Of a stretch of 64,000 nt of DNA, positions 7,060-52,410 are shown piece by piece. Under the pieces are notes generated by a model. That model did not search any database. It was not told the DNA's origin and worked only from the letters and a program-made list of their open reading frames with translations. Source of the stretch: Halorussus pelagicus (lineage in GTDB: Archaea > Halobacteriota > Halobacteria > Halobacteriales > Haladaptataceae); the NCBI RefSeq assembly GCF_004087835.1, contig NZ_CP035119.1, forward strand, positions 1,240,001-1,304,000, in the 5' to 3' direction. Within the stretch, counting starts at the first letter, position 1, and every line of letters starts with the position of its first letter. Both the position numbers and the translations under genes were made by a program.

Positions 7060-7329
7060 TCAGCCGCGGTATCGCAACGCGACCACGACGTTCGCCACGG
7101 TGAGCGCCAGGGTCACGAGACCGAGCGTGAACAGTTCGACCGGGAGATTCCGAAAGAGGAGCCAGTAGGCCGTCAACAGAAGTCCGAGCGCGGCGACGAT
7201 GTTGTATGGTTCGGCAGCCAGTTCGCTCGCCAGACTAGTCGTTCCGTCACTCGCGTCGCCTGCCACGCCGGTGCGCTCGCCCGTCGTTCCCACCGAGTTA
7301 TCGCGTGTCTTGTTTAAATCGCGTGCCAT
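7060..7329 (-). CDS. Small membrane protein, two predicted TM helices
   Basis: An 89-residue protein. The first 38 residues are hydrophilic (MARDLNKTRDNSVGTTGERT...). They are followed by two hydrophobic segments (about 42-60 and 66-84) separated by RNLPVE, and a short basic end (ALRYRG). The basic end after the second helix and the hydrophilic N-terminus suggest both termini face the cytoplasm. It lies convergent to ftsY and apart from other minus-strand genes. No family is recognised. Confidence 0.72.
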   Translation of the reverse strand: MARDLNKTRDNSVGTTGERTGVAGDASDGTTSLASELAAEPYNIVAALGLLLTAYWLLFRNLPVELFTLGLVTLALTVANVVVALRYRG

Positions 7330-7478
7330 ACATTGAACTTATGCGGACGGGAGTCCCTGACGATACGTAATAAGGATACCGGCCGGTTCAACGGCGGAGT
7401 TGTCGCTGGACGAGGTACCGAATACCGTCGAAAACTGTGTGGAGAGGTTACTAGAAAGTCTCCGTAGAACGGAAAATC

Positions 7479-7500
7479 GCGCGGTGCTAGGACACCGCGC
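7479..7500. repeat. Perfect hairpin A, loop CTAGGA
   Basis: An 8-bp perfect stem (GCGCGGTG / CACCGCGC) encloses the hexamer CTAGGA. It is followed by AACGATGATGTGGACTTC. Hairpin B at 7650 has the same loop and the same stem length but different stem bases. Confidence 0.85.
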
Positions 7501-7649
7501 AACGATGATGTGGACTTCCTTCTGGGTGCGATGGCCGAAGTAGTCTCGGTCTCCGGCTACAGCGATTCGTATTCGTTCTACCCATATAGGATTTTTGGTT
7601 CGTGAACTCTTTTTACAACATTTAAGTAATATAGTCGAAATCCACATTC

Positions 7650-7671
7650 GCGCAACGCTAGGACGTTGCGC
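7650..7671. repeat. Perfect hairpin B, loop CTAGGA, abutting a start codon
   Basis: An 8-bp perfect stem (GCGCAACG / CGTTGCGC) encloses CTAGGA. The last base touches the ATG at 7672. A TTTAAG/ATATAG-rich stretch at 7621-7634 would place a transcription start inside the palindrome, so it could act as an operator or as a 5' mRNA hairpin. Confidence 0.85.
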
Positions 7672-7836
7672 ATGAGAAAAAACATGTTGTGGCTAGCCTC
7701 TTCGCTGGTAGCGATGGTCGTAGTCGGTGTTCTCAGTCTCCGGTTCGTGCCGAGACGCTGGGAAAGCGTAGACCTGAAGGTCAGGCCGTGGGGTCTGACC
7801 GTGTCGGCAGACAGCGACCCCGATAATCCCGAATAG
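7672..7836 (+). CDS. Small single-pass membrane protein behind a hairpin
   Basis: A 54-residue ORF. After MRKN comes one strong hydrophobic helix ([18 protein letters not shown], about residues 6-23), then a basic patch (RFVPRR) and a polar tail ending SDPDNPE. The start codon directly follows hairpin B. It is too short for statistical certainty, but the helix, acidic end and promoter-like AT tract support it. A 52-residue membrane ORF at 51993-52151 has the same arrangement of palindrome then ATG. Function unknown. Confidence 0.5.
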
Positions 7837-51992: not shown

Positions 51993-52151
51993 CTACTGTG
52001 ACTCCGTGTGGGTCAGGCGTCGGTACGTGTGATATAGCCCCACGAGAGCGGTCATCAGTCCGACGAGTGCGGTCGCCAGTTCGACGACGACCGTCGCTCG
52101 CTGAACGGTGACGCTCACACCGACGATGACAACCGGCCAAGGTGTAATCAT
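51993..52151 (-). CDS. Small membrane protein behind a perfect palindrome
   Basis: A 52-residue ORF, MITPWPVVIVGVSVTVQRAT then VVVELATALVGLMTALVGLY, with one or two hydrophobic helices and a basic/polar end HTYRRLTHTESQ. Its ATG begins 3 bases after a 10-bp-stem palindrome (52155-52179). A TTATAG box at 52184-52189 lies 33-38 bases upstream of the ATG, so the palindrome covers the likely start site. Its first codons are duplicated in inverted orientation at 52340-52356. The layout parallels the ORF at 7672. Confidence 0.52.
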   Translation of the reverse strand: MITPWPVVIVGVSVTVQRATVVVELATALVGLMTALVGLYHTYRRLTHTESQ

Positions 52152-52356
52152 CGTACACTACTGCGCGAGGCAGTAGTGTTCAGCTATAACGACTACTTAG
52201 TCAAAAATTTTCCTGTTGGCTCCTGTTCGTAGTTTCGAAGAGAGCAGTCAATTCAGCTGTGAAACCAAGATAACACTGCACAGAGCTGCAACTGAAGGAG
52301 CGAGTTCCAAAAGGAATCATCGGATGCAGTAGTGCACCGATGATACACCTTGGCCG
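52134..52356. repeat. 223-bp element with imperfect terminal inverted repeats
   Basis: The left end CGGCCAAGGTGTAATCATCG (52134-52153) continues to CACTACTGC. The right end, read on the opposite strand from 52356, is CGGCCAAGGTGTATCATCGG continuing to TGCACTACTGC. The arms of about 31 bases differ by one indel and few substitutions. Inside are a perfect hairpin ACACTACTGC/GCAGTAGTGT (52155-52179, loop GCGAG) at the left and a bulged hairpin ATCATCGG..CCGATGAT (52316-52344) at the right. The core is AT-rich and non-coding. It could be a MITE-like element or an inverted duplication of the small gene's 5' end. Confidence 0.7.
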
Positions 52357-52410
52357 TATAGACGAACTCCTGCTTTCGATAAAAACGTTTCCCCAAAGTG
52401 AGCGTCCGCC

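Follow-up and report, generated by a model that had tools for sequence, protein, structure and literature searches.

What is the role of two short hairpins with one and the same CTAGGA loop that stand close together in the ftsY-srp54 interval of the archaeon Halorussus pelagicus? We analysed this locus in a stretch of 64,000 nucleotides (nt) of the genome (hereafter the window; assembly GCF_004087835.1, contig NZ_CP035119.1, positions 1,240,001 to 1,304,000). An initial annotation had proposed that the hairpins, here called A and B, are either remnants of an IS200/IS605-like element or a regulatory structure for an adjacent gene encoding a small membrane protein. The latter idea pointed in the right direction and was incomplete, since both hairpins appear to belong to one pair of RNAs, an antisense RNA and an mRNA leader. 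Our data suggest, with a probability of roughly 0.7, that the locus is an RNA-regulated, type I toxin-antitoxin-like module with a layout resembling that of par/Fst. Control of the small-protein gene by RNA is very probable on the sequence patterns described below, and that the 50-amino-acid (aa) protein would be a toxin is rather more likely than a harmless role. The predicted parts are as follows (positions are those of the window).

7471..7562, minus strand: predicted antisense RNA, antitoxin-like, about 85-90 nt (covariance model and two covarying helices; the ends are approximate, as inferred)
7479..7500, minus strand: hairpin A, predicted 3' hairpin of the antisense RNA (antisense loop UCCUAG; perfect 8-base-pair (bp) stem, whose non-Watson-Crick pairs in relatives are of the G-U type on the minus strand alone)
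7501..7560, no strand assigned: shortened direct copy of the leader and the beginning of the gene, whose minus-strand reading complements the mRNA; in this genome the predicted duplex covers the start codon
7535..7549, minus strand: predicted 5' hairpin of the antisense RNA, CCGAG-ACUAC-UUCGG (4 of 7 pairs changed on both sides over 9 loci)
7581..7598, minus strand: predicted transcription factor B recognition element (BRE) and TATA box of the antisense RNA (CCAAAAATCCTATATGGG; TATA-like box at the same spacing across loci)
7621..7633, plus strand: predicted TATA box of the small-protein mRNA (TTTAAGTAATATA; from its spacing to hairpin B across loci)
7650..7671, plus strand: hairpin B, predicted 5'-terminal hairpin of the mRNA leader (loop CUAGGA; perfect stem, recurring with changed stem and identical loop)
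7684..7836, plus strand: toxin-like membrane protein of 50 aa with a single span (8 Halorussus genomes have homologues; C-terminal codon pattern)

Both hairpins were present exactly as first described, A being GCGCGGTG-CTAGGA-CACCGCGC and B GCGCAACG-CTAGGA-CGTTGCGC, each with a perfect 8-bp stem and a 6-nt loop, and 171 bp apart from start to start. The pattern GCGC-N4-CTAGGA-N4-GCGC has no other site in the whole 3.49-Mb genome. Perfect hairpins of this size (8-bp stem, 6-nt loop) numbered 8 in the window against a mean of 2.9 in 200 simulated windows (first-order Markov), and A and B formed the sole pair with the same loop at a distance of 500 bp or less, whereas the simulated windows had none.

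Recurrence was surveyed in 18 Halorussus genomes (G000 is the genome of this window; locus suffixes b, c, d (and s) mark module copies). The initial annotation had named a lack of recurrence or of stem covariation as grounds for refutation; the pattern was found again in relatives, paired, beside the same small membrane open reading frame (ORF) and with covarying stems. Specifically, six genomes carry both hairpins at the srp54 locus (G000, G021, G022, G024, G025 and G026), two a reduced module (G011 and G013), and the remaining 10 lack the module; the flanks in these 10 have diverged too far for exact empty-site junctions to be read by eye. Wherever hairpin B is present the small ORF comes after it. 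Paralogous small-ORF loci lie beside serA in G021 and G013 (b) and at two further sites in G021 (c and d). Two hairpins each are likewise present at b and d, with the loops TTGCAG, CTGCAA and CTACAA, and in G021d hairpin A is situated downstream of the gene.

The loops and the stems have evolved differently. Comparison of A with B in the nine intact pairs gave differences at 0 of 54 loop positions and at 21 of 144 stem positions (loop versus stem, Fisher p=0.0013); the pair in the window has six stem differences and no loop difference. Loops of different loci, on the other hand, differ on average at 3.3 of 6 positions, while every loop reads C-NNNN-A or its complement T-NNNN-G. These patterns suggest that the loop may serve as a locus-specific address that separates paralogous modules. 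The loop is moreover inverted in G025 and G026 (TCCTAG) and in G011 (TCCTGG), which fall on separate branches of the SRP54 tree with G011 as sister to the non-inverted G022, and G021 and G013 have the b loop in opposite orientations. Such inversions would be tolerable because the cores CTAG and TGCA are self-complementary, so that four base pairs could still form when a single partner is inverted. At the srp54 locus the CTAGGA-type hairpins have CTAGGA on the contig plus strand in every genome, with the gene on either strand; this is probably chance, contig orientation being arbitrary. We did not invoke the bacterial U-turn loop rule, which CUAGGA-type loops alone fit.

The two hairpins are also related through the sequence that follows each of them. 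Hairpin A is followed by a direct but truncated repeat of the leader and gene start found after B (62 of 96 aligned positions identical in this genome, 61-88 identities in others), from which a short GTGAGA-like element found after hairpin B is missing. An 11-nt inverted match, GATGTGGACTTC and GAAATCCACAT, also exists; it is common to G000 and G024 only, as judged by eye, and does not mark the ends of an element as had been supposed. Read from the minus strand, copy A would give an antisense RNA that starts with a 5' hairpin, continues through roughly 30 nt of linker with complementarity to the gene start and finishes with the 3' loop hairpin and a short U-run (GAUUUUCC). Over nine loci 99.3% of the pair cells of this structure are standard and five pairs have changed on both sides, and slid (shifted) versions of the structure fail. 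A covariance model matched positions 7479-7560 of the minus strand (E 1.5e-16, this sequence being a member of the training set), and among 295 genomes of the order it gave one weak match outside Halorussus (G120, E 6e-4). Weak matches at L108, L117 and L120 were judged to be chance, as was an Rfam match to a Staphylococcus small RNA (sRNA; E 0.37, below the cut-off).

Since G-U pairs tell the direction in which an RNA is read, A looks like a minus-strand RNA and B like a plus-strand RNA. Hairpin A and the 5' helix together have 15 G-U cells against one A-C cell in the minus-strand reading, the sole A-C cell belonging to this genome with its helix one position out of register, and the B hairpins have G-U on the plus strand in two cases against one contrary outer pair; these counts are from related sequences and not fully independent. 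It is with this evidence that the hairpins could be weighed as operators for a dimeric DNA-binding protein: the palindromes do adjoin promoters, but strand-specific G-U pairs and the kept loop identity fit RNA and not duplex DNA, which makes operators a very remote prospect.

Promoter-like boxes support transcription in opposite directions. All seven antisense copies at the srp54 locus have a minus-strand BRE/TATA 22-24 nt before the antisense start, with AT-rich or similar boxes at the other loci, and TTTAA or a near variant precedes hairpin B by about 30 nt in eight of the nine intact pairs, being weak in G021d. The predicted duplex between antisense RNA and mRNA was strongest with the own partner at eight of nine loci, with or without the hairpins, and when the hairpins were excluded own pairs averaged -73 kcal/mol against -47 kcal/mol for foreign pairs. 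Every intact locus contains both A and B; the split between them is therefore older than the species, and the match of own pairs is not expected from descent alone. In five of the six srp54-locus pairs the duplex covers the start codon, at least partly. Thus, as far as complementarity goes, an RNA matching the small-protein mRNA is encoded nearby, as in type I systems.

These data also bear on whether A is simply a functionless copy, produced by partial tandem duplication and held similar to B by gene conversion. A and B are homologous and more alike within than between genomes, and where the loop has been flipped both loops have flipped together, all of which speaks for a converted duplication. 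It would leave unexplained, however, why the loops are identical while the stems differ, why A has a 5' hairpin of its own, absent from B, with compensatory changes and a minus-strand G-U bias, and why a minus-strand promoter lies inside the A-B interval; we regard a functionless copy as improbable. Still less probable, to the point of being negligible, is the non-autonomous IS200/IS605-type element with hairpin ends that the initial annotation had put forward. With such elements the locus shares paired hairpins of the same orientation, paralogues at other sites and relatives without the module. The loops, however, match within a locus and differ between loci, the opposite of ends read by one transposase, so the same ends are not found everywhere; each hairpin is part of a predicted transcript that has its own promoter, and the pattern of G-U pairs points to RNAs on opposite strands. 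Moreover, there is no transposase, the protein gene is outside the A-B interval (with A downstream of the gene in G021d), and no relative, nor any homologue of the protein, was present in the plasmid and viral collections searched.

The small protein had been read from the ATG that touches hairpin B (7672), giving 54 residues. That codon is probably not the true start, because relatives carry GTG there, out of frame in several (G022 and G026); the conserved start is 7684, which gives a protein of 50 aa. It combines a single hydrophobic span (mean hydropathy 2.3 over 19 residues) with a polar tail in which LR-VP-RW is invariant, and is thus small (<60 aa) and hydrophobic, as type I toxins are. 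In the C-terminal tail codon positions 1, 2 and 3 vary at 10, 2 and 21 sites, respectively, and the ratio of nonsynonymous to synonymous substitution rates (dN/dS) is mostly 0.26-0.6; these codon data indicate that the protein is conserved under purifying selection. There was no convincing match among the Pfam, NCBIfam or PADLOC families, and the only sign of the protein beyond Halorussus in 394 genomes of the order was a weak, partial match in one other genus. We also noted a conserved 89-aa membrane-protein-like ORF (7060-7329, minus strand), located between ftsY and the module, without NCBIfam match.

Conservation of this kind would also be in keeping with the data if the antisense RNA controlled a useful, non-toxic membrane protein, that is, if the gene were riboregulated and no toxin-antitoxin pair; all of the support from RNA pairing is silent on toxicity. 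We consider a harmless protein unlikely for reasons that lie in the distribution and decay of the loci. The presence of the module is patchy (8 of 18 species), which fits an addiction module better, as do orphan antisense genes where the protein gene has gone and gene copies that have lost their promoter. Specifically, at G011s one hairpin and the gene are left and the promoter of the gene is deleted, and G013s has kept the antisense and its promoter and lost hairpin B and the promoter of the gene. In the genome of the window an orphan d-type antisense (G000d; near G000:C1:374850-374976, L094 1341-1500; antisense loop CTGTAA) remains where the gene has been removed, and an orphan b-type antisense is found at serA in G024 (G024b; L112 / L125). 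Of the five broken loci, three (G013s, G000d and G024b) have thus retained the antitoxin-like part longer than the gene or the signals for its expression. This pattern is an indirect basis for toxicity, which it would suggest.

The orphan antisense of this genome, which adjoins a succinyl-CoA-ligase-like gene, was exposed by a search with the stem pattern and a free loop. Numerous GCGCGGCG palindromes with different loops also came up in that search, most of them solitary and unrelated; matches in Haladaptatus were discarded as they lie within apparent protein-coding sequence. A relaxed search for the CTAGGA pattern gave scattered, non-palindromic matches. Among the stem-pattern sites, of which G013 has 18, the palindrome GCGCGGCG-CACGAG-CGCCGCGC is repeated many times in G013, G015, G023 and G024 and lies just past a gene end at one inspected site; it may represent a dispersed repeat of terminator-like kind.

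A second family, which is unrelated and follows the same logic, likewise fits an addiction module better than a non-toxic protein, and it supports the type I-like reading of the first module. It was first met at the serA site of G024 as a different 52-aa membrane ORF with a 30-nt inverted copy of its start region upstream, and the window itself holds a member, with the ORF downstream of serA and the predicted sRNA upstream, on the same strand as the ORF.

51993..52151, minus strand: 52-aa ORF MITPWPVVIVG...RRLTHTESQ (7 loci in 6 Halorussus genomes, E 3e-25)
52154..52178, minus strand: leader hairpin ACACTACTGC-CTCGC-GCAGTAGTGT, seen in the sequence, whose partner in the predicted duplex is the loop of the sRNA hairpin
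52309..52360, minus strand: predicted sRNA (complement of the start region, then a terminator-like hairpin and U-rich tail)

The predicted duplex of the window sRNA is -56.7 kcal/mol against a shuffled mean of -28.3 (z -6.8). The sRNA is complementary to the start region at all seven loci of this family (z -5.1 to -7.3 versus shuffled sRNAs), and for most of these sRNAs the 3' end is a terminator-like hairpin with a U-run. The G013 copy has ATA in place of a start codon and has retained its sRNA. The serA-htpX interval is occupied by the second family in this genome, by the first family in G013 and G021, and in G024 by an intact second family together with an orphan first-family antisense.

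For the first module we propose that the mRNA begins about 30 nt past its TATA box, opens with hairpin B and encodes the 50-aa protein from 7684, and that a divergent minus-strand promoter in the A-B interval would yield the antisense RNA of about 90 nt from the truncated leader copy. The two RNAs would first touch through their complementary hairpin loops, CUAGGA with UCCUAG, a kissing contact suggested by the identity of the loops. Pairing would then spread via the linker over the start codon, blocking translation, so that the protein would be made only once the antisense RNA runs short.

Several points weigh against a toxin-antitoxin module of this kind. One outer pair in hairpin B of G021d is of the type that fits the opposite strand, and the TATA box of that locus is weak; G021c (L030 1466-1650), a small membrane ORF with one A-type hairpin (loop CGGCAA) whose partner hairpin was not found, does not fit. 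With the hairpins included, the own mRNA is no better than fourth for the A RNA of this genome, owing to divergence of the two stems, and the hydrophobicity of the 50-aa protein is ordinary. The likeness of A and B could partly stem from gene conversion, although conversion would not spare the loops with the stems differing. All sequences are from one genus, so the counts are not independent. Moreover, structures, promoter-like boxes, strand, pair-specific complementarity and conservation are features of the sequences, from which we infer transcription, the kissing contact of the loops, the block of translation and toxicity.

Among known systems the closest in layout is par/Fst of the Enterococcus plasmid pAD1, where two RNAs read oppositely over direct repeats make contact by their hairpin loops before they cover the start of translation (PMC7472228). 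Both have a small membrane peptide with a charged tail; here direct-repeat copies carry promoter-like boxes on opposite strands, and pairing may start at the loops. The present module is nonetheless archaeal, with mostly divergent promoters (convergent in par/Fst) and without the shared bidirectional terminator, A and B being divergent with separate hairpins at the srp54 and serA loci; its hairpins are at the mRNA 5' end and the antisense 3' end, and the loop changes between loci. The module does not belong to the par/Fst family, because the 50-aa protein is unrelated (the family searches gave no convincing match that would link it to Fst/Ldr) and the shared terminator is absent. With hok/sok, tisB/istR and msoT1/msoA1 it shares a small hydrophobic protein and a small complementary RNA (PMC12390103), but these have been reported from bacteria only in the literature searched, and the protein studied here matches no searched family model. 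CreTA and CrePA are haloarchaeal systems with an RNA antitoxin as well; there, RNAs with clustered regularly interspaced short palindromic repeat (CRISPR) sequence act with Cascade to repress transcription (PMC12737573), while the RNA described here is complementary to an mRNA, and no repeat-like sequence was noticed, without a computed repeat comparison.

A 2025 paper lists type I toxin-antitoxins from Proteobacteria, Firmicutes and Tenericutes only, plus its own cyanobacterial case (PMC12390103). We found no archaeal type I system in the literature searched, with subscription journals and preprints outside its scope, which does not prove absence. On balance we lean slightly towards the view that archaea have true type I toxin-antitoxins, with at least two unrelated families in Halorussus that replace one another at shared sites such as serA-htpX, the first of which, the one at srp54, has a swappable loop as its specificity address, inverted on separate branches in both partners together. 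If true, the type I class would extend to another domain of life, with different membrane lipids and a different initiation of translation. Loops that are kept while stems are free to change would offer a natural experiment on the evolution of loop-loop addresses that avoid cross-talk, and the rule of two nearby hairpins with one shared loop may serve to find such modules without protein similarity.
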